In this document: positions 2,238-34,866 of the stretch, one piece after another
Layout: each line of letters begins with the position of its first letter
Numbering within the stretch: position 1 is the stretch's first letter
Made by a program: the position numbers and the translations under genes
Notes under the pieces: model-generated
The model's input: the letters and a program-made list of their open reading frames with translations, nothing else
What the model was told of the DNA's origin: nothing
Database searches by the model: none
NCBI GenBank assembly: GCA_030693415.1
Contig: JAUYAR010000162.1
Location: 1-39,128, forward strand
Origin: Candidatus Cloacimonadaceae bacterium
GTDB lineage: Bacteria > Cloacimonadota > Cloacimonadia > Cloacimonadales > Cloacimonadaceae
Reading direction: 5' to 3'
Length of the DNA stretch: 39,128 nt

Positions 2238-4238
2238 TCACTTCTTTAATACGGCTTTTAAAAACCGCTTAAGCGGTACAACATCAATTATCTGTTCTAT
2301 TGATTTGCTATCAAGCATCGAATTTATGCGATAAATAGCTTCAAGATCAAGTTTACGAAAGGAGTTGCCTTTTGTTTTCTTTGAAGAAAGAGCGCTCTGA
2401 TCAATGAACAAATCTTCAATTTCTCCCGACAAAATACATAATCCGTGACGTTGTAAGTAGCTAAGATTCTTGGATAATGAGTACTGAGAAGGAATCCCCC
2501 TAATTTGTCGCGACCTCTTTGCTGTGAAAAAAGTTTCTTCTCTATTTGTTTTTATCCAATTACGAATATCTACGATCAGTTTTTTTACGGTTTTCCCTTT
2601 TTCTTGGAAAGTACAACTTTGTTCAAAAAATTGATCCTGAACAGAAGCGATCGAACTATGGGTTCTTAATTCCGGATTTATTTTGAGGTATTTCTTATGG
2701 TCTCCAGATAAATCACGTAACATAAAGTCAAAATCAGAAATTATATAGCAGCGAGTCTTTGTTTTTAAGACAAGTTCTACCATTGCTTTAATATTATCTT
2801 TCCCGCCCACAGCAATTATTGAAACGTTTTGTTTATCTAATTCCCCGGGATATACTTGATCAGCCACCATTCTAAGTAAGTATCCATCATTACCCTCGCA
2901 TACAATGACCTTTTCTGCAAAGAACAACTCATTTTGGTTGTTATCAAGAAGTAACCTCTTATACTGAGAAATCTGAATTGGAACTGCTTCAGTAGTATGA
3001 TTATCTTTATGAACCATAATGATATTCAGGTCTTTTGTAGTTGTTCTAATGAACTCAGAGCAATGAGTTGTTATAATCACCTGATTTCTGTAATTGTCCA
3101 AAAAATCGTCTAATCTATCGCTAATTACTCTCCTAGCATGAGGATGAAGATAGATCTCTGGTTCTTCAACACACAGTAAAGCAGCGCTTGCGGTATTAAC
3201 ATTCTTAGTATAGTAGTTAAACAATCCAATTACTGCGGCACTTTGAATCCCTGATCCTTTGTCTGTTAACGGAGTATTTATACCGTCGTCTACAAACAAC
3301 TGGCAGCTCTTATATAGATCAGTTTTGCTATCAGCACTAAATCTAATCTGTAGCTGGGTTCCGGGAAAAGCAATGTCTAAGGATGTGTTCTTTATCTCTG
3401 TAGTGACTCCAGCGAATATTTTATTTGCAACGAGTTGTACACGTTCAAGCGCTTTATTCATTTGCGGTGTGATTTTATTTTCCAACAAATGTTTCATTAA
3501 CTTACCAAACCATGTATACGAGGTTAGTCGTAACTGGTTTTGGGGATCACGAAAAGAAGGGATTATAGCACTTTGCATTAACTCATTTCTCACCTGAGCT
3601 TTATAACCCATAACCCAATCATGAGATGAATCCTCTCTAAAAAGAAAACGAATGTCCTTATTAATCTTACCTGATTCGTTGCGTTTAGCCTTAAATAGGT
3701 AAGCAAAATTAGATGTTTCCTTAAATACTTCCTCAAATCGCTTTTGATTATTCAATTTGCTATCAACCCATATTTTACCAGAGCAATCATCTTCAATGTT
3801 GTCGAAAATATTTAGCAAATTGCTAGGGTCTAATCTATAGCGAATAGGTTCCTTTATAGGTTTTTTTTCCTCCCATCGTATTATCTCACCACAGATATTG
3901 AACCCAAAACACTTATTAATACTTGCATAATCTAAATCCTCTAGTTTGTCATCATTCCATTCACTGTCGTGAACTGTTTCTCTAATCAGAATGCAGAATA
4001 TTAGGAGTTCATCTGCAACAGAATCTTTGGATTTATCATAATAGAAATCTCCTTCCGTAACGTTTTCGACCTTGTCCCATGCAGGTGCAGTTTCACTAAG
4101 AACAATATTAAGTGCTTTAATTATATTGCTTTTACCAGCATTGTTTCTACCAATAATTACGTTTTTACCTTTCTCAAACCTTAAATCAAGTTCCTTAATT
4201 GATCTGTAATTTCTAATGTATAGTCTTGATAAGTACAT
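2238..4238 (-). CDS. OLD-family ATPase with TOPRIM nuclease domain
   Basis: This 666-aa protein has the OLD layout. An ABC/SMC-like ATPase has Walker A at residues 30-37 (GRNNAGKS), Walker B around 357 (VEEPEIYLHP) and a switch-like TTHCSEF. A TOPRIM domain follows, with the catalytic Glu at 448 (VCEGNDG), the GGKDNI loop, and the acidic pair D502/D504 (ISDFDF). OLD proteins are ATP-regulated, metal-dependent nucleases used in phage defence (P2 OLD, GajA of Gabija, retron effectors). The start is supported by GAGAGG 7 nt before the ATG. It lies 23 bp after the SF2 helicase stop, so they are probably cotranscribed. The usual class 2 partner, a UvrD-like helicase, is absent; the adjacent helicase is of type III Res type, which makes the pairing unusual. 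Full length with no visible defect. Confidence 0.88.
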   Translation of the reverse strand: MYLSRLYIRNYRSIKELDLRFEKGKNVIIGRNNAGKSNIIKALNIVLSETAPAWDKVENVTEGDFYYDKSKDSVADELLIFCILIRETVHDSEWNDDKLEDLDYASINKCFGFNICGEIIRWEEKKPIKEPIRYRLDPSNLLNIFDNIEDDCSGKIWVDSKLNNQKRFEEVFKETSNFAYLFKAKRNESGKINKDIRFLFREDSSHDWVMGYKAQVRNELMQSAIIPSFRDPQNQLRLTSYTWFGKLMKHLLENKITPQMNKALERVQLVANKIFAGVTTEIKNTSLDIAFPGTQLQIRFSADSKTDLYKSCQLFVDDGINTPLTDKGSGIQSAAVIGLFNYYTKNVNTASAALLCVEEPEIYLHPHARRVISDRLDDFLDNYRNQVIITTHCSEFIRTTTKDLNIIMVHKDNHTTEAVPIQISQYKRLLLDNNQNELFFAEKVIVCEGNDGYLLRMVADQVYPGELDKQNVSIIAVGGKDNIKAMVELVLKTKTRCYIISDFDFMLRDLSGDHKKYLKINPELRTHSSIASVQDQFFEQSCTFQEKGKTVKKLIVDIRNWIKTNREETFFTAKRSRQIRGIPSQYSLSKNLSYLQRHGLCILSGEIEDLFIDQSALSSKKTKGNSFRKLDLEAIYRINSMLDSKSIEQIIDVVPLKRFLKAVLKK

Positions 4239-4261
4239 GCAAAGCCTCTCTGTAAGATAGA

Positions 4262-7200
4262 TTATACTATCAATCTAGTCACACTGTCTATGTAATTATC
4301 ATCTTCCATAAACACTACGTTATTCTTCTGATACTCGTCTGGATCATGCCCGTGGAGTTTAAGCTCTTGTTTGGGAGTCCAGGACAATATCCAGCTACTT
4401 AGAATTACATTTGGATCGGCAAGCCTTGTCTCGATCTCTTTGATGCGCTTGTGGAACTGGATTTTCTCACTATTTACCCCTTCGTGCATCAGACCATGAG
4501 GTTCAATGAAGTGGACATTCTGCTTGCCCTCTGAGAGAACCCAGAGGATAAAATCAGGATGGAAGTTGCCTGCTTCAAAGAAGCCAACTCCCTTACCCCT
4601 GCTAAGATTGCGGAGAAGATATAGCTCCTGTCCCTTATCCTTCATATCTTTCTGATTCTTTTCGCACCATTCTTTAAGGTCAGTAATAAACTGGTATTCG
4701 CTTTCGCCTAAGGAGACTGGCAGGATTGTAATATTCCCACCATGACGTACATGAAACAAGGGTTGGAAAAGATGATTGCCAAAGTTACAGGCTTTGAGAT
4801 CGCCCACATGCAAAAGCTGGTCTTTCTTAGCGATGATCTCATCTTTGAGCTTCTTTATTCCTTCGATTACCTGGATATCATCGCCATCTACAATCAACTG
4901 ATATTCTCGGTCTGAAGGCAGATTGTCGTCATCTGCTGTCAGCTCTCTCAATTCTAACCGAGGTTCTATATAGGACTTTTTGCAGAAGTTATAGTACTTT
5001 TCACTGAAACGCTTTACCAGTTCCGTAGCGATTTGCTGGAGGATAAGCACTTCATCATAGTTCTGGGGAGTGAGTCTCGTTTCCGGTAGAAAGAGCCGAT
5101 ACCAAGACGTATCTGACAACAAGCTGATAATCCCCTGCTTACTGAGATTTAGATTGTGCCAGCTTCGTTCACGTTTGAATCGTTCCAGTTCGAAATACAA
5201 GCGTTCCATGTCCAAAAGACTGATTTGCTTGTTTCTGAGCTTTACCTCGTCTTTTTGTCCATCCTGAAGAGTACCACGTGATTTAATAGTCTGTATCCTG
5301 GGGTACCAGTCTGAAACTACCGGATTGTTTTGCAGGTACTGTGGTATACTGCCAAGGGTAGGTACTGGTCCGTCCTTCTTAAAATCATACTCAGTGCCAT
5401 CTTTCTTCTTTTTCGGTCGTATTATCTTCAGCTTCTTGCCAAAATCAGCGGTTACATTCATTGGGATAGTAATAACCAGCCTTTTCTCGTTGCCAGGCAA
5501 GCCTTCATCACGTAAGAATTGTCTGAACTTATCCATGAAGTCAGCTTCGATGCCAAAGACATTCAGGGTTTCTATATCTTCAATGAATCCGGGCTTCGTG
5601 GTGGCATAAGTATGCCCACTGCGCTTCAGACTCCATTCATAACCTTTTAAGCGCACACCGCGCCCAAATAGCTGGATAATTTGCGTTCCTTCGCTCTTGC
5701 CGACATGCATCAAACCCATGGTACTAACACGCCAGCAATCCCATCCTTCTACGAACTTCTTGGAACCGATCAATAGGTTGATAGGAGATGAGGAATCCTT
5801 TACTGAGGCAAACATCGCTTCTGTGAAGTCGCTGTCGTCCACAGTTAGCTGAACATCATTGTGCTTGGCATATTCTTCTACGTGGTCACAGAGTCCTTTG
5901 GCATCCCCGACATTGATCAAACCAAAGGGTGTGTCGCTATTACCAAGATACAAAGCTACCTCGCCTGAATCTCCTTTGATTCTATCCAATCTTAGCTGAC
6001 CACTGGCAGGATTATTGAACAAGGTTCTCAAGATATCTTGATAAATCTCGGAAGTTCCATTCGTAGCATTAACCGTCTTGAGTAGGTAATTGAAGGAATT
6101 GGCGAAGATATCATTACCATCATAATCCAGCAAACCTGTACTGCTTCCACTTCCGTAAAGAATTTGCTCGATACTACGTTGGAAGACAGGTGCATTGGAA
6201 AGGAATTTAGCGATAAAGACAATAATCTGACCAACATCAGCCAATAACTCCTCACTGGGAAGTTCAACCTCTTGTTTACCCTTTTTCTTGGTAACAGTGC
6301 TACCCACAAAGACCCACAGGGGTTTTTCCAGGTTAAAGGGGACAATATCCAGTTTCTTATCTTCATAAACTTTAAGTTGCTGATAGTATTTGAGCAGACA
6401 TGCAGTCAGATAGACATCCTGCACCTGCTGATAGGTTTTGGGCAGATTCAAGATCTGGTAGTCTTTGCCAAACCCATCTTCGTAAAACCAGCGATAAGAA
6501 TAATCAAAGATCACAGTTTTGGCATAGCTATCCTCAAAAGCTCTGTTATTGGCAGCAGCAACAGCTTGGGCAAAAGTGGCAGAATATTCAAAAGTAAAGC
6601 CCTTGGCACATAGCTCCGACCGTCTGGTGAACCATACACCTTCATCTTTTCCGCTCATCCCCCGGTGACCTTCATCCACCAAAAGCAGGTTTTGATCTCC
6701 CAGGCTTCGGGTGGCGATTGTATTAGGACCTTCGGTATCGCCGAGCTTGGTAATCTCGATCACATCGACCATATCAATACTGCCGTCTTGTTTGGTCTTT
6801 AGTCTTTGGGCTGAATAGAAACCGCTAATCTTAAGCTCTTCCAAATGCTGCTCACTAAGCCGTTCATTGGGGCTAAGCAAGATAACTCTGGAAATCTCGC
6901 TGCCCTCACGAGTCTTTTTGGCATAATGCCGGAACTGCAAGAGGTTCACATGCATCAAGAGGGTCTTACCGCTTCCCGTAGCATTTTGCAGACAGAGCTT
7001 ATTTAGATCATCAAATGAGTATGGCTCAAGGTTCTGAAAGCCAGTCCACTTTTCATTAAACCGCTTAAGATAGACATTCAAATCTTCCAGCAGCTTTGCT
7101 TTATCGGTAAAATAGCGATCCAGATAGATTTCCACAAACAGCAGGGTTAGCCATTGAAAGTACTTCCAGACAATAGGACGACTGCGTAAGTAGTTAATCG

Positions 7201-7495
7201 TTCTGGTATGCGAGACGATGTTTTCCTCATAGATGCGTAGCTGCTCTTTGCTGATGGGATGGAACTGATTGTAAAAGAGTTCACTGTTCACCAGTTCATG
7301 GTAAAAACGGTGTAAACCGTCAGCATCATAACCCTCCAGACGGCTATCCCTGATCGGTGCTGCCAGCTTGTGAAAGGGTTTAGTATTATCCTTATACTCC
7401 AAGAGCGGATCAATCCCAAATTGACTCATCAGCCACTGGTTAAGGAGCAGTTTATTGGTGAATTTATGGTTATGCAATGTAGCTTTACGAGCCAT
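4262..7495 (-). CDS. SF2 helicase / type III Res-like restriction subunit
   Basis: This 1077-aa DEAD/DEAH-box (type III restriction Res-like) protein carries Walker A ATGSGKT with K177, a DEGH box at 274, and motif VI QLFGRGVRL at 608. The C-terminal 130 residues look like a PD-(D/E)XK nuclease: PDFILW with D981, then FIEPHGL with E998, where the canonical Lys is His1000. I start it at the ATG at 7495, because GGGAG precedes it by about 9 nt and it shares one base with the TAA of the upstream GTPase gene (TAATG). A longer in-frame start at 7510 lacks such support. No Mod methyltransferase lies nearby, so it is not a complete type III restriction system. Probable role: ATP-driven DNA translocation or cleavage in defence. 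Confidence 0.85.
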   Translation of the reverse strand: MARKATLHNHKFTNKLLLNQWLMSQFGIDPLLEYKDNTKPFHKLAAPIRDSRLEGYDADGLHRFYHELVNSELFYNQFHPISKEQLRIYEENIVSHTRTINYLRSRPIVWKYFQWLTLLFVEIYLDRYFTDKAKLLEDLNVYLKRFNEKWTGFQNLEPYSFDDLNKLCLQNATGSGKTLLMHVNLLQFRHYAKKTREGSEISRVILLSPNERLSEQHLEELKISGFYSAQRLKTKQDGSIDMVDVIEITKLGDTEGPNTIATRSLGDQNLLLVDEGHRGMSGKDEGVWFTRRSELCAKGFTFEYSATFAQAVAAANNRAFEDSYAKTVIFDYSYRWFYEDGFGKDYQILNLPKTYQQVQDVYLTACLLKYYQQLKVYEDKKLDIVPFNLEKPLWVFVGSTVTKKKGKQEVELPSEELLADVGQIIVFIAKFLSNAPVFQRSIEQILYGSGSSTGLLDYDGNDIFANSFNYLLKTVNATNGTSEIYQDILRTLFNNPASGQLRLDRIKGDSGEVALYLGNSDTPFGLINVGDAKGLCDHVEEYAKHNDVQLTVDDSDFTEAMFASVKDSSSPINLLIGSKKFVEGWDCWRVSTMGLMHVGKSEGTQIIQLFGRGVRLKGYEWSLKRSGHTYATTKPGFIEDIETLNVFGIEADFMDKFRQFLRDEGLPGNEKRLVITIPMNVTADFGKKLKIIRPKKKKDGTEYDFKKDGPVPTLGSIPQYLQNNPVVSDWYPRIQTIKSRGTLQDGQKDEVKLRNKQISLLDMERLYFELERFKRERSWHNLNLSKQGIISLLSDTSWYRLFLPETRLTPQNYDEVLILQQIATELVKRFSEKYYNFCKKSYIEPRLELRELTADDDNLPSDREYQLIVDGDDIQVIEGIKKLKDEIIAKKDQLLHVGDLKACNFGNHLFQPLFHVRHGGNITILPVSLGESEYQFITDLKEWCEKNQKDMKDKGQELYLLRNLSRGKGVGFFEAGNFHPDFILWVLSEGKQNVHFIEPHGLMHEGVNSEKIQFHKRIKEIETRLADPNVILSSWILSWTPKQELKLHGHDPDEYQKNNVVFMEDDNYIDSVTRLIV

Positions 7496-8235
7496 TAGTT
7501 TTGCTCCCACATCCGTTTCATAAACTCCCGATGCCTTGGATTGGATACACCAAGACCTGGCAAATCCACAAGTACAATTCTGGGATCAATGCTTTCTTTG
7601 ACATGTTGAACGTTAATATCTACCTTGTCCACGAATAGAATATCGTCATTATCCTCAGCGACGTAATTACCTAACTCATCGATGGGTATAAACACATCAG
7701 GTCTTTTGTTCTCCCAGCCATTTAACAACTTTTTGAACTCATCAAATAACTTCGTATCTGATTTACTCAACTCGGTAGCTTTTTTCTTTTGCCTATCTAA
7801 CTCTGCGACTTGTTCATCCAATGATTTGCCTTCTAATGATTCCTTGAGCTTCTTCAGACCATATTGTTTTGTTATCTCATCGATGTACAGATCCCTTAAT
7901 TGATTCTTGGCTGCGACATTCAGGAATGAGACCTTAGCAGCCTTATCTGCTTCGACATTATCTCTGAACCTGATAAACGTGGGGACTGCTGTTGTTGCTT
8001 TCGCGGATTCTGGTAGTAACTCCATTTCAAGCAGAGCATTAATCAGCGTTGATTTTCCGGAAGAGAAAGAACCCAAGAAAACGATGTTGAACTCAGGATT
8101 CTTCAGCTTGTTAACGAGAGCTTTTTTCCCGAAGACAAAAGTAGCTAAATCTTCATCTACATTTACGTACCTTTGTAAATTGCGGACTGACGAAAGCAAT
8201 TCGTCTAGTCGTTTTGCCATGTTCTCAGTTTTCAT
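7495..8235 (-). CDS. Truncated dynamin-like GTPase
   Basis: This 246-aa protein keeps the N-terminal half of a bacterial dynamin-family GTPase. It has the P-loop at residues 55-63 (GSFSSGKST), a G2 threonine in KATTAVPT, and the G3 box DLPGLG at 224. It stops 19 residues after G3, at WEQN. The G4 (N/TKxD) motif and the membrane-binding and GED-like helices that normally follow for several hundred residues are missing. Residues 110-180 are helical and charged. The start has AGGAG 7 nt before the ATG. The TAA overlaps the helicase ATG, so the truncation ends exactly at the helicase translation signal. It is either a deletion remnant or a deliberately short form; hydrolysis by this fragment alone seems doubtful. 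Confidence 0.75.
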   Translation of the reverse strand: MKTENMAKRLDELLSSVRNLQRYVNVDEDLATFVFGKKALVNKLKNPEFNIVFLGSFSSGKSTLINALLEMELLPESAKATTAVPTFIRFRDNVEADKAAKVSFLNVAAKNQLRDLYIDEITKQYGLKKLKESLEGKSLDEQVAELDRQKKKATELSKSDTKLFDEFKKLLNGWENKRPDVFIPIDELGNYVAEDNDDILFVDKVDINVQHVKESIDPRIVLVDLPGLGVSNPRHREFMKRMWEQN

Positions 8236-26529: not shown

Positions 26530-26976
26530 CTATTGATTCTCATTCTCACTTGAGCGGCACTTCCAGCAAAGTCCGCTGATTTGCAGATTCAGATCTCCGA
26601 TGGAAAAATGGATCGCCGCCGCGGATTGTTTCAAAGCGGGCATCACTTCCTGCAGATCTGTTTCCAAAACGGAGCCGCAGGAGGAACAAACCCAATGCAC
26701 GTGACGCGGATGCCCAAAGATGTGTTCAAACATATCCCGCGCCTGGCTGCGCATGGAATGCTGGATCAAACCGGATTCCAAAAGCAGGGGCAGAGTGCGA
26801 TAAACGGTCGCCCTCGATACATCCTGTGAAAGCTTTCTGATCCTTTCATACAAGCCCTCTGCATCGAAATGCCCATGCAGGGCAAAAACACTTTCCAGGA
26901 TCAGCTTCCTGGTGCTGGTGAGTTTCAAACCCTTACGGCTGAGAAACCCGCTGAAAATAAGCTCATAATCTTGCAT
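26530..26976 (-). CDS. fur: Fur-family metal-responsive repressor
   Basis: A 148-aa Fur-family regulator. The N-terminal winged helix (about 1-80) includes the recognition helix SRATVYRTLPLL and the HGHFDAEGLY signature. The dimerisation domain has the metal-site cluster GHPRHVHW and two CxxC pairs (C97/C100 and C137/C140) for structural zinc. I choose the ATG at 26976 because AGGATAGGATA precedes it; an upstream in-frame ATG at 27033 would overlap the promoter and operator. It is the first gene of the fur-feoB-feoA operon, so it probably controls its own iron-uptake genes. Zur, PerR or Mur cannot be excluded from sequence alone, but linkage to feoB favours iron. Confidence 0.9.
   Translation of the reverse strand: MQDYELIFSGFLSRKGLKLTSTRKLILESVFALHGHFDAEGLYERIRKLSQDVSRATVYRTLPLLLESGLIQHSMRSQARDMFEHIFGHPRHVHWVCSSCGSVLETDLQEVMPALKQSAAAIHFSIGDLNLQISGLCWKCRSSENENQ
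26534..26548 (-). promoter_or_regulatory. Fur-box-like site before feoB
   Basis: TGATTCTCATTCTCA (plus strand) matches the 7-1-7 Fur consensus TGATAATNATTATCA in most positions when read on the minus strand. It lies within the last codons of fur, 8 bp upstream of the feoB ATG. It could give internal control of feoB, or be a coincidence of the Asn/Glu-rich Fur C-terminus. Confidence 0.35.
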
Positions 26977-26990
26977 TATCCTATCCTTGA

Positions 26991-27033
26991 TGAGAATGAG
27001 ACGCAATTTTGTAGGAGTAGCCATTTCTGTCAA
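26991..27033 (-). promoter_or_regulatory. Promoter and putative Fur operator of fur-feoBA
   Basis: A perfect -35 TTGACA (27033-27028, minus strand) is followed by TACAAAAT (27013-27006) as a poor -10. Directly downstream, at 26991-27000, lies GAGAATGAG, the same half-site word found before feoB but in the opposite orientation. Its position between the -10 and the start codon fits repression by Fur (autoregulation). Confidence 0.45.
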
Positions 27034-27093
27034 GAGAGAAATCGCGGGAGAGTGAGCTTGTCCGGGTGAACAGGTGAATATAAACCCTCAAGT

Positions 27094-27300
27094 AAAACTT
27101 CAAATTTGATCACCAAAACTTCAAATGGAGGGAAAGTGGGAATTATTATAGGCTGTTGCTGACGAGTTTTAATCACCAATTCTTCAAATTTAATCACCGT
27201 TTCTTCAAATTTGATCACCAAAACTTCAAGCTTTTATCACCGAAAGCTTCAAGCTTTTATCACCAATTCTTCAAATTTAATCACCAAAACTTCAAATAGG
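27094..27300. repeat. Iteron array, 21-23-bp units (CTTCAAATTT-ATCACC)
   Basis: CTTCAA starts at 27098, 27119, 27182, 27203, 27224, 27247, 27269 and 27290. The 63-bp gap after 27119 is exactly three 21-bp periods and includes a decayed unit near 27161 (TTTTAATCACC kept). Consensus is CTTCAA(AT/GC)TT(T/A)(G/A/T)ATCACC plus 4 variable bases. There are no unique spacers of CRISPR length. The array lies between the chromosomal fur operon and the phage genes. It resembles protein-binding iterons such as transposase-end, partition or replication sites. Confidence 0.8.
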
Positions 27301-27315: not shown

Positions 27316-27352
27316 AAAAAAACCGTGGGGAGCACCGGGCGGTGTCCCCACG
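27316..27352 (-). terminator. Strong terminator of the phage late operon
   Basis: On the minus strand CGTGGGGACACC pairs with GGTGCTCCCCACG (one bulge, 12-bp stem, tetraloop-size loop; 27352-27324), followed directly by GGTTTTTTT. It is the first good leftward terminator after the tail genes, so it likely ends the late transcript before the iteron array. Confidence 0.8.
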
Positions 27353-27536
27353 TCTCGGAGGGCATTCTATGTAGGGTCTGTAGGCTAATGAACATATACT
27401 TGAAGCCATTATTTATGTCAAGAAACATAATCGTATCTTTCTTATCATATTGTGCAGAAAGGACTTGACCACGGTTGCGATAGTTGTTGTGTAGAAACCA
27501 TAAATCAACAGTCGGGTAACCGAGAAGGAGATCAAG

Positions 27537-27866
27537 ATGACCAAGCAAAATCAGAAAGGCAAAGGCAAGGCAACGCTGGAGGAGATGGTGCAATCAGGCG
27601 GTCAGATCGTACTATTGAGAGAGGATGGCACTGAACAGGCAATCGAAGAGATTATCGATAATCAAACACCTACAACAGATGATCCATTCGCTAATGAGTT
27701 CCACTACAAGAGCTGGTGGAATCAGTTCCGGGGACCCTGGCTGCAGTCCGAGAAGATGACTATTGAAGAGATCAAGATCAAAGCCGATGATGCCTGGGAA
27801 TGCAGTGATTACAAAGAAGTCATTAATCTGATGGCTGAGCTGATCTGCAGACTCGAACAGAAGTAG
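27537..27866 (+). CDS. Small acidic protein, opposite-strand phage accessory gene
   Basis: A 109-aa protein, not recognised. The start is clear: GAGAAGGAG lies 6 nt before the ATG. It has a basic N-terminal tail (about 1-12), a segment QSGGQIVLLREDGTEQAIEE that resembles a small beta-hairpin, then an acidic helical C-terminal half (TIEEIKIKADDAWE). No membrane segment. It is transcribed against the phage late operon and has its own perfect terminator, like a moron cassette. A TTGACC (27465-27470) could be the -35, but no convincing -10 follows. It may be expressed in the lysogen. Confidence 0.75.
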   Translation: MTKQNQKGKGKATLEEMVQSGGQIVLLREDGTEQAIEEIIDNQTPTTDDPFANEFHYKSWWNQFRGPWLQSEKMTIEEIKIKADDAWECSDYKEVINLMAELICRLEQK

Positions 27867-27927: not shown

Positions 27928-28584
27928 TTAGTAGGGTAATGCCAGCAATTGATATTTAGCTGCGGGTGCACCGAAAAACTGTCCTATGCCTAAGGTAACG
28001 ATTGTCTGAGTTCCCTCAAATTTGATGTCTGAGACAAACAGAAAACAGTTGCACTGGTTGGTCAGGATGATGTGTGGAATGGTCTCGTAGTCCTTATCCA
28101 GCCTGTGCGAGATAAGCGTATCTGATCTGAGATCGGCAGGGCTGCTCTGTGTTCTGTCACCCACTCCTCTATTCTGATCTTGAAGCTCATGAGCTATATT
28201 GGATAGTGTGAATGTGCTGAAACCTAAGTGTTGAGCCAAGACTGAACCGTTAGCAAGCTTATTTCCGGTTACTACTCCATTGAGAATGTGATTACCATAG
28301 ATACAATCATTTTGCAGACCTCTGGCATCGAGTTTACCAACCGTGCAAGTTTTACCTGAGAATGAGCCATTGGGATCAACCTTGTTGTCCCAGATCTCAT
28401 AGAAACCCCAGTCACGTTCTAAGAGGGTATCCGTTTCATAATAGCCTGAGCCGGATGGGTTCTCAAGAACCTTGATGCCGTTAGCAAAGGTGCCGCCGGG
28501 TCTGACCAGTCTGATGGTCACTCCGGTTAAGGGGATGCGGTTAGCTGCGCTCATGATGTAGTAGCTGATTCCAAATCTATACAT
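27928..28584 (-). CDS. Phage tail-tip / fibre-like protein
   Basis: This 218-aa protein is probably the last structural protein of the late operon. AAGGAG is 7 nt before the ATG. Residues 1-85 form a beta-rich domain with PLTGVTIRLVRPGG and GSGYYETDTL, similar in style to baseplate-attachment domains. A linker NGVVTGNKLANGSVLAQHL follows, as often found before fibre trimer stalks. The C-terminal domain (about 160-218: TIPHIILTN, FLFVSDIKFEGT) looks like a beta-sandwich receptor-binding head. Assignment as receptor-binding or tail tip protein rests on position and sequence style, not on a named family. Confidence 0.6.
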   Translation of the reverse strand: MYRFGISYYIMSAANRIPLTGVTIRLVRPGGTFANGIKVLENPSGSGYYETDTLLERDWGFYEIWDNKVDPNGSFSGKTCTVGKLDARGLQNDCIYGNHILNGVVTGNKLANGSVLAQHLGFSTFTLSNIAHELQDQNRGVGDRTQSSPADLRSDTLISHRLDKDYETIPHIILTNQCNCFLFVSDIKFEGTQTIVTLGIGQFFGAPAAKYQLLALPY

Positions 28585-28616
28585 GTCTGCTCCTTGTATT
28601 TATGGTGTTTATTATG

Positions 28617-29054
28617 TTATAGAAAGACGCTTTCGTTTTCGTCTAAGGTATGGATGTAATCAAAGCTGATGGTGGTGAGTTCGCCGGTGTATCTTGATTC
28701 CAGAGATACCTTAATCTTCTCGGGATACTCATGCAGATCATCAGGCATCTTAGGCAGTTGAGTGATGGTTACGGGAAACTGCCTGATTAATGTACCGAAC
28801 ATAGTGAACTCGATATAGAACTTGCCGGGAACAGTCAGGAAGTATAGAAAAGCGCTGTACTCTTCCGGTCTAAGCACCGCTTCGATGTTGATGGCATCTT
28901 CCCGATACGGTTCTCTTTGGTGTATATATGTGGGATCATAGGCATTCTTCTTCTCGATGCGGTATTTGAGTTTGGGAACATATTCCACCTGCCCGTTCTC
29001 GCAGGTATAGAAGCTATTGCCACTGCCGGTTCTGATCATGCGAAAGCCTTTCAT
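28617..29054 (-). CDS. Phage tail/baseplate component
   Basis: A 145-aa protein, family not recognised. I start it at the ATG at 29054, which overlaps the upstream stop as ATGA; a GTG at 29063 is possible. The content is mainly beta strands (FRMIRTGSGNSFYT; YSAFLYFLTVPGKFYIEFTMFG; KIKVSLESRYTG). No membrane segment. Its place between the large baseplate-like gene and the fibre-like gene suggests a distal tail role. Confidence 0.6.
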   Translation of the reverse strand: MKGFRMIRTGSGNSFYTCENGQVEYVPKLKYRIEKKNAYDPTYIHQREPYREDAINIEAVLRPEEYSAFLYFLTVPGKFYIEFTMFGTLIRQFPVTITQLPKMPDDLHEYPEKIKVSLESRYTGELTTISFDYIHTLDENESVFL

Positions 29055-30532
29055 ATCAACCACGCCTTTACTTTGTATTCATCATTTGCATAGTTACGCT
29101 CCAGTTCGGTAATGGCATAGACCTTGGTCTTGATCCTGATCTTGGATTGGAGACTAAGGCTGTATTTGGACAATTGGTCTATTACGGCTTCAATGCTCCA
29201 CTTGGAGTCATAGAAGTCCATCAGATAGGGCTGGATGATGCCTTGCAGTTGAGTGGTGTCTCCTGCCAGGATGTCGATGGTTTTGATATCCGGCTTTTCC
29301 TGATTGCCACGTTTTGAAAGAAAGGCTACGACATCGGTGTCCGCTATATCTATAATAGAAGTGGAGTAGGCATCCTTGTTCTTGAGAATGATTGAACCGG
29401 ATGTATTGGTGAATACAGTGGCATTTAAGAGTATCAACATGGCCTGCAGAGCTTTCAAGTTATCGGTCTGCTCAGCCTGGTTGGTCTCGTAAGACTTGCC
29501 GGGCTGCAGTTTGGTAGGCATGATATTGCCATGAAAATGAGCTTCCACCCAGAGATTAACCGCGTGGCTGCTGCCATAGTTGCATTGACCCAAAGTGCCG
29601 GTACTGGTAAGTGTATTCAATTGGGCTTCTGAGATACCGTTATCATTAAAGAAGCTGAGCAGTTCATTATAGGCATTATCCAAAGAAGTGAGACTGTCCT
29701 CCCAGCCGGTCTTTTCGTCATACTCCTCTATCACGGGACAGATGTTGTTATAGAACTTGTATATCCTGCCCCGATAGCGACCCTGATATCTGGTGGTGGC
29801 AGGATTGGGATAGGTAGCTTGGATAATCTTTTTATAGGCAAAGATAAAAGTGATTTTGTTACTTGGCGTATCGACCCGGTAACCGTATTTCGGTGCCAGC
29901 CACCCGGAGCTATGATAGCTGTAAGTCCAACCACCGGGAGGATTAGGAAAGGCAAGCAAGTCGTCAAAGCCGACGTGGGCTATGGTTAGCATATTACCCG
30001 TGCTGATGTTAAGAGTGGGAATGGAGAACTGATTATTGTAAGGGATGGATATCGGAATAGTCTGCTGGATGTCCTGCAGAAAGTAACCGAGTAACCAGAT
30101 GGGCTGATAACCTGCAGTCAGGCTGTAATAATGCGTCAGGTCGGAATAGACAGATAACAGCTTGATCTTATCATAACAGGTCAGTTTCAGGATACCAGTG
30201 CTGACGTCAAAGCTCAATTGCGAGGTATCGATTATCCCCGTAAAAAACAGAGCATTATCCCGATATACTTTCACTTCATAGTGGGAGATATACCGCTCAT
30301 GCTCGTTGCTCCCGGACAGGATGTTGGCACTTAACCAAGTAGTCGGGAAACACTCAAAGATGAGTCGTTTAGGTTCCCGGCTGTAGTTGGATACGGTCTG
30401 CAGCTTATCAGCAGAGACCGACAGACTGATGATGGCTCGACTTGCAGCGGTATCAGTCAGACTGTGCTTTACCTGATTATAGTCAGAAGCATTGGTCTTA
30501 CCTTGAATGAAGTCTATCCTAAATATGTTCAT
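29051..30532 (-). CDS. Phage baseplate hub / tail-associated protein
   Basis: This 493-aa protein starts at the ATG at 30532 (GTG at 30541 also in frame); no clear ribosome site precedes it, perhaps because the opposite-strand gene was inserted just upstream. Residues 85-135 hold a pattern common in phage baseplate-hub/protein-D-like proteins: HYEVKVYRDNALFFTGIID followed by LKLTCYDKIKLLS. The C-terminal 100 residues return to short beta strands (SIEAVIDQLSKYSLSLQSKIRIKTK). It probably forms the tail hub through which DNA and the tape measure pass. Specific family assignment is uncertain. Confidence 0.65.
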   Translation of the reverse strand: MNIFRIDFIQGKTNASDYNQVKHSLTDTAASRAIISLSVSADKLQTVSNYSREPKRLIFECFPTTWLSANILSGSNEHERYISHYEVKVYRDNALFFTGIIDTSQLSFDVSTGILKLTCYDKIKLLSVYSDLTHYYSLTAGYQPIWLLGYFLQDIQQTIPISIPYNNQFSIPTLNISTGNMLTIAHVGFDDLLAFPNPPGGWTYSYHSSGWLAPKYGYRVDTPSNKITFIFAYKKIIQATYPNPATTRYQGRYRGRIYKFYNNICPVIEEYDEKTGWEDSLTSLDNAYNELLSFFNDNGISEAQLNTLTSTGTLGQCNYGSSHAVNLWVEAHFHGNIMPTKLQPGKSYETNQAEQTDNLKALQAMLILLNATVFTNTSGSIILKNKDAYSTSIIDIADTDVVAFLSKRGNQEKPDIKTIDILAGDTTQLQGIIQPYLMDFYDSKWSIEAVIDQLSKYSLSLQSKIRIKTKVYAITELERNYANDEYKVKAWLI

Positions 30533-30578
30533 GCTTGACACAATCGGCTTAATATCAAGATTGAGTTACGAGGTAAAA

Positions 30579-31118
30579 ATGAGCAGAAAAACCATTTATA
30601 GTGAGATCGAAAGTCCTTTGTCCTACGATGATTGGCAACCGGTATGTCCAATTGGGGAATATCGAATAATTTATCCAAATGAATATCCTCCATTGAGCCA
30701 GAGTAAATTATTAGCAAAAGCTCCCTGTGCCGTGGTTGCTTGTTCAGGTAGTTTAGGTTTTGTTTCGTATATTTTTCAATTGTACCGACCTGATCGTGAA
30801 AAGGGTAAGTATGTGATAGATGAGCACCAGTATGTTTGCTGTTATAACACAACAACTCGTGAGTCAGCATCTGGGTATATTCATCATGCTGATTATGCTG
30901 AACGCACCTATAGTATTGATCAGAAGATGGTAAGTTATTTAACGGGAAGTAGTAGCCTTCCAGTAATATTTCCAACCAAAGTTCCACCAACAAGTGGATC
31001 ATTAGATGAGTTGAGGCAGTTAGGAAGAATAGACGGTCTCGATTTCTGTTATGAGTATGGGTATTCGCAATCAGTAAAAAAAGGAATTGTTGAGCCATTA
31101 CCTATACCTCAGACCTGA
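30579..31118 (+). CDS. Opposite-strand accessory gene in the tail module (179 aa)
   Basis: A 179-aa protein, not recognised. GAGG 5-6 nt before the ATG at 30579 supports this start over an upstream in-frame ATG. A TTGACA lies at 30535-30540, without a clear -10. It contains several Cys and Tyr clusters (APCAVVACSGSLG; HQYVCCYNT) and a C-terminal YEYGYSQSVKKG; no membrane segment or signal peptide. It sits alone on the plus strand between the tape measure and baseplate genes, and its end overlaps the tape measure stop by 17 bp. It is more AT-rich than the structural genes. This is the classic placement of a moron, often defence, exclusion or anti-defence, but the function is unknown. Confidence 0.7.
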   Translation: MSRKTIYSEIESPLSYDDWQPVCPIGEYRIIYPNEYPPLSQSKLLAKAPCAVVACSGSLGFVSYIFQLYRPDREKGKYVIDEHQYVCCYNTTTRESASGYIHHADYAERTYSIDQKMVSYLTGSSSLPVIFPTKVPPTSGSLDELRQLGRIDGLDFCYEYGYSQSVKKGIVEPLPIPQT

Positions 31119-33723
31119 TCTGCTTACCGGTATCGGCAATCTCACTGACCCGCACAGGATCGTTAGACAGCGGATCGACATTGATCTCAATAATGGACTT
31201 GCTGTCTTTGATATTCTGCTTCATCTCAACAACCTGATCCCGCAAATCGCCCATAATATCCAAGAGCGCATTTATACTGCCATTGCTACTAATACTGCCA
31301 CCTGAGCCGTAATATGAGCCGACACTGGCAGGCAGTGGGACACTCGGCATCTGCAGTCCGGCAAAGGCAAGCTTCACCTGACTAAGCGGTGCGAAGTTGA
31401 GGAAGTCGAATATGCCTCTGCCCAAGGTTTTTACTCTGTCCTTGGCAGTGATGTACTCGTCACCTTCGGCTTCGATGATGATCCCACCATTTTTATGGGA
31501 ATTACCGATTAAGAGACCTCCGGTTGCTGCCTTGGGCGGTTCAGTGGATTGGATAACGGCGATATTGGCAAGTCCGGCGCCTATTGCTGCGGCTGCTGCA
31601 GTTACTGCCAGTCCGGGTCCTACTACGGGAATACCCACCATAGACTTATAGGCAGCGGTGGCAGAGGCGTATGTATCGATCATTGCTTGTCCGATTGCCA
31701 GGGTTTTCCAGAGCGCAAAGCCTTTCTTGCCGAAGATCTCGGATGCTTTGGCAAGGTCTCGCATGATCTGTTGAGCACCCTGCAGGTTCCGCATCTCATA
31801 GTCATTTCTAATCCGAGCCTTGGCTGCTTCACTCTGAACCGTGATCTGCTGCTCGGTAAGACCTGCTGCGATGAGTTTATCCTTCTTCTTGGCATAGTAG
31901 TTGTCAATGGCATCCAGCTCGGCTTGATAGGTATTGCCTGCTAAATCCAGACTCCTCTGAGCAAACTCATAGCGTGTATCTTCCAATTCCTGAGCCTTGC
32001 GTTTCTCTTCCTCGGCAATCCGCTGCTTTTCCTTCTGCTCAATCTCAGCCTGACGAACTCTTTGAGCAGAAGCATCAGCCTCCACCTTAGTAATCTCTTT
32101 GGCATAGTAACTGCTGATATTGGTAAGAACAGTCTCAGATGCATTGAGTGATCTGGCTTTCTCCAACTCGGCATCCCGCTGGATTGACAGTTCCCGTTGC
32201 CTGCGAGCCACCGCATCATCTATGGACAGGGTGTCATACTTCTGTTGAAGTGATTGCAGAGCATCGAGGTCTCTTTGCTTGGCTTGGACAAGCTGCTGTT
32301 CAAATCCCTTGATACGTTCCAGAGTGGATATCTGCTCATCGGCATTCAGGGCAGTTACGGCTCCCAGTGCTTTATAATGCTGTTTGGTGTATTCGAGTTT
32401 ATACTCAAGCAGTGCTATACCGGTTAAGGTAGCCTCGGTCTCGATCCTCACCTTTTCTTTGTTGAACTCGGCTCTGGCTTTGCTGTCCTCAACCGCTATC
32501 TTTTTAGCTAACTCAGCCGCTTCAATGGTGCGCTCTTTCTGCCTGTCGAAGTAATCGGAACTGACGATAACCAGACCGGTCTGCATCTTCTTGACCGTAT
32601 CCTCATAGTCAGCCATCTCCTTCTTGATCTCACCCAATCTTCGTTTAGCTTCTGCATAGTCGATGCTAAAGGCGATCTCCCGATGCTTGGCGACTAAGGA
32701 CTCCACACTTACCGCTGTCTTATCCACCGAATCCTTATACTCATCTTGCGTTTCCATTGCTGCTTGATTGGCTAATTGTGTGGAAGCATAGGCAAAGCCG
32801 AGTCCGGCAACCGCTCCCACCGCCAGACCGATAATCCCGGCAACGGGATTGATGGCTATCTTCAAAGCATGATAAGCAGCAGTCAGAGTGATCACTGCTG
32901 TGGTCACAGTTCCTATCACAGGTATGGCAATTAGCAGACCGGTAACAAAGCCTTTCATAATGGGAGATAGGTTCTGATAGCCTTCCATCAACCAGCGCAG
33001 ACCCTGAAGCAGAGGAGTGATCAGAACATTGAGCATATCACCGATCGTCTCTTTGATATCTCCCCAGGCATTGGCATTCTGCAAACGCAGATCAGCCAGA
33101 GCGATAGCTGTACCGCCATAGTCCTCGCCAAGTTTCTCCACCAGATAGGATACACCTTCAGTCTTGAGCCGGGTATCATCAAGCTCAATGCCATAGCGAC
33201 CAAGCATTTCAGTATGTCCATTCAGAGCCCGACCCATGAGATCAAAGGCACTCTCCACACTCATCCCGGTGGCTTTATTGGCTTCGGTAAAGTCCAGCAG
33301 CAGTGGCACAAGCTGTTGTATCTCATCCTTGTTCAGTTTGAAGGTCTGCGAGAGTTTGGACATCAGAGCCAGCAGTTGATCATCTTCGAAGTTGGTCAAT
33401 GACTGCATGGCAGAGGCAAACTCTCCCATCACAGCAGCAGCTTCACCGAAGGCTATCTTAGCCAAAGTAACCGCTTGTCTCTGAGCCAGTGATGCATCCA
33501 ACAATCCATTCATAGAACGCACCAGACCACCGACCACCTGGATCACTCCATCGACTGCAATCTTCACATCACGAATGGTAGCCAGAGCCTGTTCTGCCGA
33601 TATCTTAACCGCAGCAGGTTTCTCCACCACAGACTGGGTGGACTCCGCCTCCTGCTTGATTTCAGCAAGCTTGAGATTGGCATCGTCAGTGACGAGGATG
33701 AGTTTGAAAGTTAGGTCAGGCAT
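31102..33723 (-). CDS. Phage tail tape measure protein
   Basis: This 873-aa protein starts with TAGGAG 5-6 nt before the ATG. Layout: an N-terminal helical region, a conserved-looking block about 130-240 (MGRALNGHTEMLGRYGIELDD, typical of tape measure proteins), a hydrophobic membrane-active stretch about 250-330 (GLLIAIPVIGTVTTAVITL; GIIGLAVGAVAGLGF), then long charged coiled coils about 350-640. A second Gly/Ala hydrophobic region (about 690-730) and a glycine-rich turn (GGLLIGNSHKNGG) follow. The protein sets tail length and helps DNA injection. It follows the tail chaperone and methyltransferase genes, and its length suggests a tail of moderate size. Confidence 0.9.
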   Translation of the reverse strand: MPDLTFKLILVTDDANLKLAEIKQEAESTQSVVEKPAAVKISAEQALATIRDVKIAVDGVIQVVGGLVRSMNGLLDASLAQRQAVTLAKIAFGEAAAVMGEFASAMQSLTNFEDDQLLALMSKLSQTFKLNKDEIQQLVPLLLDFTEANKATGMSVESAFDLMGRALNGHTEMLGRYGIELDDTRLKTEGVSYLVEKLGEDYGGTAIALADLRLQNANAWGDIKETIGDMLNVLITPLLQGLRWLMEGYQNLSPIMKGFVTGLLIAIPVIGTVTTAVITLTAAYHALKIAINPVAGIIGLAVGAVAGLGFAYASTQLANQAAMETQDEYKDSVDKTAVSVESLVAKHREIAFSIDYAEAKRRLGEIKKEMADYEDTVKKMQTGLVIVSSDYFDRQKERTIEAAELAKKIAVEDSKARAEFNKEKVRIETEATLTGIALLEYKLEYTKQHYKALGAVTALNADEQISTLERIKGFEQQLVQAKQRDLDALQSLQQKYDTLSIDDAVARRQRELSIQRDAELEKARSLNASETVLTNISSYYAKEITKVEADASAQRVRQAEIEQKEKQRIAEEEKRKAQELEDTRYEFAQRSLDLAGNTYQAELDAIDNYYAKKKDKLIAAGLTEQQITVQSEAAKARIRNDYEMRNLQGAQQIMRDLAKASEIFGKKGFALWKTLAIGQAMIDTYASATAAYKSMVGIPVVGPGLAVTAAAAAIGAGLANIAVIQSTEPPKAATGGLLIGNSHKNGGIIIEAEGDEYITAKDRVKTLGRGIFDFLNFAPLSQVKLAFAGLQMPSVPLPASVGSYYGSGGSISSNGSINALLDIMGDLRDQVVEMKQNIKDSKSIIEINVDPLSNDPVRVSEIADTGKQIRSEV

Positions 33724-33799
33724 AAACTCCTATTGAAAAATCAATTGACAATTTGTGATACTTCAAAAAGTAAGTTCAAAAAAATCACATGGAGATTAC

Positions 33800-34096
33800 A
33801 TGCTTAAAAAAGGTGACCAAATGGACTACTTCATTATTGAAGTAGGTGGAATTCGTTATGACATTAGTGGATATTGTTGGCTCGATGATTCTGATTCTGA
33901 TACTGTTGTTGAACATGATATGTGGGTTCATCAAAATGGTAGACCGGTTAATCCGATTATTCCGGTTTTCAAGATGGATGACCTTGCTTTGATGAACTTG
34001 CAAGTGGCAAGCAACAGTGTAAAAATAAGTATGCTGCAAGACTTAGTTGATAAGGCTTTTGGGACTACTAATACGCAGTTCATAGTAATTCAATAA
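33800..34096 (+). CDS. Opposite-strand accessory gene (98 aa)
   Basis: A 98-aa protein, not recognised. GGAG 5 nt before the ATG at 33800 selects this start. A TTGACA at 33745-33750 is followed 20 bp later by TAAGTT, a weak promoter candidate. The protein is acidic and compact, with VGGIRYDISGYCWLDDSDSD and a C-terminal helix MLQDLVDKAFG. It lies on the plus strand between the tape measure and the methyltransferases, and its stop overlaps the methyltransferase stop by 7 bp. AT-rich compared with its neighbours. Likely a moron expressed in the prophage state; an immunity or anti-restriction role is only a guess. Confidence 0.7.
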   Translation: MLKKGDQMDYFIIEVGGIRYDISGYCWLDDSDSDTVVEHDMWVHQNGRPVNPIIPVFKMDDLALMNLQVASNSVKISMLQDLVDKAFGTTNTQFIVIQ

Positions 34097-34866
34097 TTCC
34101 TAATCAGCAGCTCAGTCTCAGTCTGGAACGCACCGGAGACGGTGTATTGCGCTTCGACTTCATCAATGGTGAAGCCTTGGTAGAGTGTGCGGATGTAAGG
34201 GTCGTTGTTGTAGGATAGCAGGAACTTCCCATTGATGTTCTTAAGTGCGGCTGCAAGCTCTTCATGCTTAGTGAAGGCATCTGCGTCTTCTCTATCGTAT
34301 AAATGCTCCTTTGTATAGTAGGGTGGATCGAGGTAAAAGAAGGTGTTGGGTGTATCAAAGCGGGCGATGATCTTCTCAAAGTCCTGCTTTTCGATAATCA
34401 CCTGCTTGAGCCGTTCCGAGGCTGCTTTCACCTTCTCCAGATTACGCAGAGGCATATACTTGTAACCCTGCATGATGCAGAAGTTCTTTGATCTTGAGCC
34501 GTAGGAACAGGACAACTGGAAGTAGAAACGGATGGCTCGTTCCAGTTCCGTTTTAGGTGGGTGTGCTGCGAAACTGTCGAACATCTCTCTGGATACGAGG
34601 TATTGATTAAGTTCGGTCACAAACGCTTCAGGGTGCTGTTTGACATACTTCCAGAAGTTCACCAGATCACCATTGATATCGTTAAAGACTTCTGTGTATC
34701 TGCTCTTAGGGTTGGTCTGCCAGTCTTCCTTCTTAGGTGACTTCCCGAATAGTATCCAGGCAGCGCCGCCAAAGACTTCACAGTAGATGTCATGTTTGGG
34801 GATGAGCGGCAGTATCTTCTTTCGTAAGAGACGCTTGCCACCCACCCAGGAGATAATGCTGTTCAC
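34090..34866 (-). CDS. D12-class (Dam-type) DNA adenine methyltransferase 2
   Basis: This 258-aa N6-adenine methyltransferase has the SAM-binding motif I CEVFGGAAW (about 29-37), an N-terminal WVGGKRLLRKKI and the catalytic motif IV LDPPYY. The helical target-recognition region (about 95-165) is intact in length. Enzymes of this class modify GATC or related sites; the specificity is not predictable here. It starts with GTG, sharing TGA with the stop of the first methyltransferase (GTGA), with GGGGGA upstream. It is a diverged paralog of that neighbour. It sits inside the tail module, before the tape measure, an unusual position for a phage methyltransferase. Confidence 0.92.
   Translation of the reverse strand: MNSIISWVGGKRLLRKKILPLIPKHDIYCEVFGGAAWILFGKSPKKEDWQTNPKSRYTEVFNDINGDLVNFWKYVKQHPEAFVTELNQYLVSREMFDSFAAHPPKTELERAIRFYFQLSCSYGSRSKNFCIMQGYKYMPLRNLEKVKAASERLKQVIIEKQDFEKIIARFDTPNTFFYLDPPYYTKEHLYDREDADAFTKHEELAAALKNINGKFLLSYNNDPYIRTLYQGFTIDEVEAQYTVSGAFQTETELLIRNY

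Follow-up and report, generated by a model that had tools for sequence, protein, structure and literature searches.

The window analysed here, a contig of 39,128 nucleotides (C162) of the 2.8-Mb genome of a Candidatus Cloacimonadaceae bacterium, carries an array of ~21-bp repeats between the host gene fur and a block of phage late genes (Table 1). This raises the question of whether the array belongs to the host or to a mobile element, and of how it came to lie directly in front of an intact fur gene.

In the array, the core CTTCAA occurs eight times (27098, 27119, 27182, 27203, 27224, 27247, 27269, 27290) and the core ATCACC seven times (27109, 27172, 27193, 27214, 27236, 27259, 27280), together spanning 27098–27295. 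The steps between successive CTTCAA cores are 21, 63, 21, 21, 23, 22 and 21 bp, which matches the description in an earlier note on this DNA of a 21-bp phase held across a 63-bp gap and followed by steps of 22–23 bp. With the exact pattern TCACC-N4-YTTCAA, we have found six units inside 190 bp and, with both strands counted, no others in the window, while first-order Markov shuffles of the window give a mean of 0.03 units in total and clusters of never more than one unit. The same array is detected independently by TRF. Thus the array of the earlier note is real, but its start at 27094 has to be moved, as the feature begins at the phage terminus at 27079, with 5'-TATAAACCC followed by a divergent terminal unit. 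The gap, which was called decayed, is evidently a conserved spacing on a ~21-bp lattice, since the sister phages G008:C8 and G046:C95 likewise have a step of 63–64 bp between units 2 and 3. Actually, this step is 41–42 bp in most classes and 63–64 bp in the class of the window, which is found in three genera.

Table 1 Features of the window and of related loci in the same genome and in relatives.
Feature	Position or locus	Strand	Remark
Host genes with resemblance, by eye, to OLD-type ATPase/nuclease, helicase/restriction-like protein and dynamin-like GTPase	2238–8235		Possibly a defence cluster
Host fur gene	26530–26976	-
TTGACA, probable -35 box of the fur promoter	27028–27033	-	Points away from the prophage
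Target duplication, 5 bp, GTGAA	27074–27078	.	TTCAC at the C11 left end
Prophage right end: terminal TATAAACCC and array of ~21-bp TCAC-N6-TTCAAA units	27079–27297	+	Putative transposase-binding sites
Terminus and terminal unit R1, TATAAACCCTCAAGTAAAACTTCAAA	27079–27104	+	Partner: C11 left terminus TATAAACCGTCACCCCAAACTTCAAG
Intra-array spacer	27126–27167	.	21-bp phase kept (63-bp step); length conserved in sister phages
Putative phage small RNA gene (~70 nt): conserved AGCCTACAGACCCTACATAGAATGCCCTCCGA followed by a terminator hairpin with T-run	27316–27386	-	Upstream TTGACA at 27421–27416
109-aa gene	27537–27866	+	In related prophages, marker gene adjoining the right end
Phage late genes (tape measure protein, two D12 methylases and protease/capsid protein among them)	27928–39096	-
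Mini-elements, own genome	L016 (C48), L017 (C38), L018 (C93), L019 (C71)		MITE-like
Mini-elements, relatives	L106–L135		MITE-like
Second-motif clusters (TGTCCAAG or GTCACAGTG) between repressor and transposase	L038:3382–3590, L039:5048–5224, L163:2504–2728
Transposases, own genome	C11, C79, C171, C73, C19, C163, C156, C140
Right ends, own genome	C162, C16, C43, C41, C76, C148, C99, C98, C111, C169

Further copies of the first 49 bp of the array region exist in the same genome, and these led us to the terminus, where GTGAA is followed at 27079 by TATAAACCCTCAAGTAAAACTTCAAATTTGATCACC. On contig C11, the order is a host Na/Pi-cotransporter gene, a left end, a divergent S24-type repressor gene, a transposase gene and a MuB-like ATPase gene. 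The left end reads AATTCAC followed by TATAAACCGTCACCCCAAACTTCAAGC, and its terminus, in inverted orientation, matches that of the window. GTGAA on C162 and TTCAC on C11 are the same 5 bp on opposite strands, as a Mu-type duplication requires. The C11 transposase is a DDE enzyme matching PF09299 and PF00665 (Mu-transpos_C and rve; E = 1.7e-20 and 1.6e-8) and PHROG 310 (E = 4e-88), and D, D and E are invariant across 20 transposases at positions fitting the DDE triad. The neighbouring ATPase matches AAA_22, TniB and PHROG 296 (‘DNA transposition protein’). As the only CTTCAA-class phage ends found in this genome are the left end on C11 and the right end on C162, we have taken them as one prophage; the two contigs are separate, with none spanning the prophage. 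An empty site was sought in relatives and none was found, fur and the Na/Pi-cotransporter gene not being adjacent there. Overall, we judge from sequence, with a probability of roughly 0.93, that a Mu-like transposable prophage lies between the Na/Pi-cotransporter gene and fur and that the array forms its right end. The support comes from the terminus, the 5-bp duplication, the genes for transposase and ATPase and the recurrence of this end plan in relatives. The main guess of the earlier note, a transposable (Mu/Tn7-type) prophage end, is thereby borne out, and the other end, for which it proposed to search, has been located on C11 with the matching inverted terminus, the TTCAC duplication, the DDE transposase and the MuB-like ATPase.

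To cover relatives, 125 genomes of the phylum were searched with the 109-aa gene as bait and were also mapped for Mu-transpos_C. The common form of the unit in ~28 related right ends is TCAC-N6-T(T/G)CAAA at a spacing of 21–25 bp, some classes having one more base in the spacer; the unit pattern misses such 7-base-spacer units, so that some phages show few units. The left ends have a single terminal unit and a few dispersed units, and each end therefore carries several related putative sites of the transposase type, as an array on the right and dispersed on the left. Exact 5-bp duplications are present in all six related prophages delimited on single contigs (TCCAG, CCGGA, GTGAA, AGAGA and TTTTG, and AGCAT in the sixth), as well as in the C79/C41 pair of the own genome (ATCAC). 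In another single-contig candidate, G058:C24, the left end was found and a right-end array was not, leaving the duplication unreadable. The unit class, TTCAA or TGCAA, agrees between both ends of the pairs compared, and on the transposase tree the site class is weakly clustered. Each ~21-bp unit may represent one transposase-binding site, in which case the phasing of 21, 42 or 63 bp would align the bound subunits along one side of the helix, where they could serve assembly with the sparser left end.

In addition, there is a second, phage-dependent motif class (TGTCCAAG, GTCACAGTG or TGTGACA), which clusters in the left end and between the repressor and the transposase. In phage Mu, the operator/enhancer lies between these two genes, and the clusters are candidate operator/enhancer sites by this analogy. 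Just inside the array of the window, the putative small RNA has a conserved 5' part containing CCCUCC and a hairpin with compensatory changes; it is present in 17–18 related prophages, and no match was found in Rfam. The own genome, with at least eight Mu-type transposases and at least ten right ends, bears a heavy load of Mu-like prophages.

The location of the array ~100 bp upstream of fur, together with related sequence upstream of fur in four relatives (G002, G019, G020, G021), could suggest that the array serves the host in regulation or replication (as fur control region, iterons or partition site), with no mobile element involved. However, the sequence in these four relatives is a related phage end, a mini-element or the remnant of one, and the remaining loci among the 20 fur loci of relatives examined have no array, so that at none of the 20 does the array stand beside fur without a mobile element, the finding that the earlier note had named as fatal to its view. 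Moreover, the same array plan precedes the phage 109-aa gene in many relatives, at many unrelated loci, and is bounded by exact 5-bp duplications. We regard a host element as hardly credible. The iteron/partition and host-regulatory readings have been rejected, as the fur-adjacent copies in relatives all belong to elements, and the alternatives offered in the earlier note, a plasmid-like prophage or partition/replication iterons, find no support.

A further candidate is a Tn7-like or CRISPR-associated transposon with the array as its end. In these transposons the two ends differ, the right one having ~22-bp sites in close succession; the ends here are likewise asymmetric, and the transposase shows a weak, distant similarity to TnsB of known structures (E ~6e-8). 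On the other hand, the best viral family match of the transposase is the phage family PHROG 310, and the phage gene content of the element, with repressor, tape measure and head protease genes, contradicts such an origin, which appears very unlikely.

The likeness of the prophage to Mu and Mu-like phages (saltoviruses, e.g., the D3112-like phages of Pseudomonas) extends to the DDE transposase with Mu-transpos_C, the MuB-like ATPase, the repressor at the left end, the 5-bp duplication and the several ~22-bp sites per end. The Pseudomonas Mu-like group has three sites per end (PMC4378225), whereas the right end of the window has six to nine units. Further, 5'-TGT has been reported as conserved at the ends of Mu-like phages (PMC4378225), while the termini of the window and C11 are TATAAACC, beginning with 5'-TA, and those of the relatives begin with TA in most cases and TG in a few. 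Since the other Mu-like features tested are present, the element is, as far as its sequence tells, a Mu-like transposable phage of a variant kind.

In five genera or species (L136, L137, L185, L189 and position 27079 of the window), the site directly upstream of fur is taken by a member of this group, be it a phage end, a mini-element or a remnant, and the right-type end always faces fur. For this reason we have tested generally how the right ends lie relative to host promoters. An outward TTGACA is found within 150 bp of 33 of the 43 phage right ends in a de-duplicated site list derived from a pattern search; 24 of the 43 have it at 36–60 bp and none at 6–35 bp, and none of 12 left ends has it at 36–60 bp. 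Against an intergenic background of 2.4% for the 36–60-bp band, the nominal p is ~4e-28, which should not be taken at face value, as the band was chosen post hoc and the sites may share ancestry. Among six right ends fetched later, after two further pattern hits had been excluded by inspection (one array-internal and one abutting the end of another element), five have the box, at 44, 47, 47, 62 and 63 bp, so that three of the six fall in the preset band and two narrowly miss it. The median distance from the terminus to the start of the outward ORFs is ~105 bp. As -10 boxes are only weakly enriched at the expected spacing, the promoter claim rests on TTGACA, the outward genes and the distance. 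The window fits the band, with the box 51 bp from the terminus and the start of fur ~100 bp away. The listed ORF of fur begins at a TTG at 27033, and the ATG at 26976 is the likelier start, since homologues align from about residue 15–20.

Ends of both types are also found on small elements without genes. Mini-elements of ~340 bp have matches in 37 of the 125 genomes of the phylum; most measure 330–342 bp, with a range of 155–342 bp across 12 pairs. One of their ends is like the phage right end, with two units, the other is like the phage left end, and the interior carries TGTCCAAG motifs, which in the C11 phage make up the second motif class. They resemble natural mini-Mus and were presumably moved by the transposase of this phage group. 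Unlike the phages, they show the 5-bp duplication in none of the 12 pairs, possibly as a result of intramolecular replicative events.

Two explanations of the oriented position can be weighed. With target capture, the prophage would come to lie ~30–55 bp upstream of the -35 box belonging to a host promoter and turn its array end toward that promoter, and this would explain why a prophage lies directly upstream of an intact fur. Alternatively, insertion may be random, and those insertions may persist that spare the promoter and turn the right end with its terminator toward the gene. The terminator-like hairpin carried by the right end is in line with such survivorship, and so is the lack of right ends at 6–35 bp from the box, a distance at which an insertion would sever upstream promoter elements. 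Yet survivorship sets no upper limit on the distance, although most boxes lie within 60 bp, and the gene-free mini-elements share the tendency, if more weakly (8 of 23). On account of this upper limit and of the mini-elements, we lean towards targeting rather than the survival of harmless insertions, the latter being a tentative explanation with clearly less than an even chance of being right. For the broader proposal, that this Mu-like phage family of Cloacimonadota combines a target choice that is directed to promoters and specific in orientation (with ~45 bp between the -35 box and the array end upstream of it) with ~340-bp natural mini-Mu elements (left end, enhancer-like motifs, right end) spreading via the same ends, we consider the odds about even.

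Such a position differs from what is known of the transposable Pseudomonas phage Ab30, for which high-resolution data have revealed no orientation bias (PMC5977238), while insertion here tends to be oriented and upstream of promoters. A closer likeness is seen in the Mutator superfamily, where TnGBS, ISLre2 and some ISKra4 elements insert upstream of housekeeping promoters; insertion of TnGBS and ISLre2 is oriented, for which the asymmetry of the end repeats is held responsible, and takes place 15–17 bp upstream of the -35 box (PMC3942029). Here, in contrast, the distance is ~30–55 bp, the transposase is of the Mu type rather than of the Mutator superfamily, and the element is a phage. In the open-licence literature, we have found no report of promoter-directed insertion or of natural mini-elements for Mu-like phages.

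In this work, the two ends have been defined for a Mu-like phage group that is abundant in a largely uncultured phylum, and with them the target duplications, the classes of sites and the lattice of their spacing. The mini-elements, for their part, would be natural mini-Mus exploiting the transposase of a phage. If targeting is true, this would be, as far as the open-licence literature goes, the first safe-harbour strategy of the Mu type, with the Mutator-family elements as bacterial precedent, and the sensing of promoters by a MuB-type ATPase or by the transposase would become testable.
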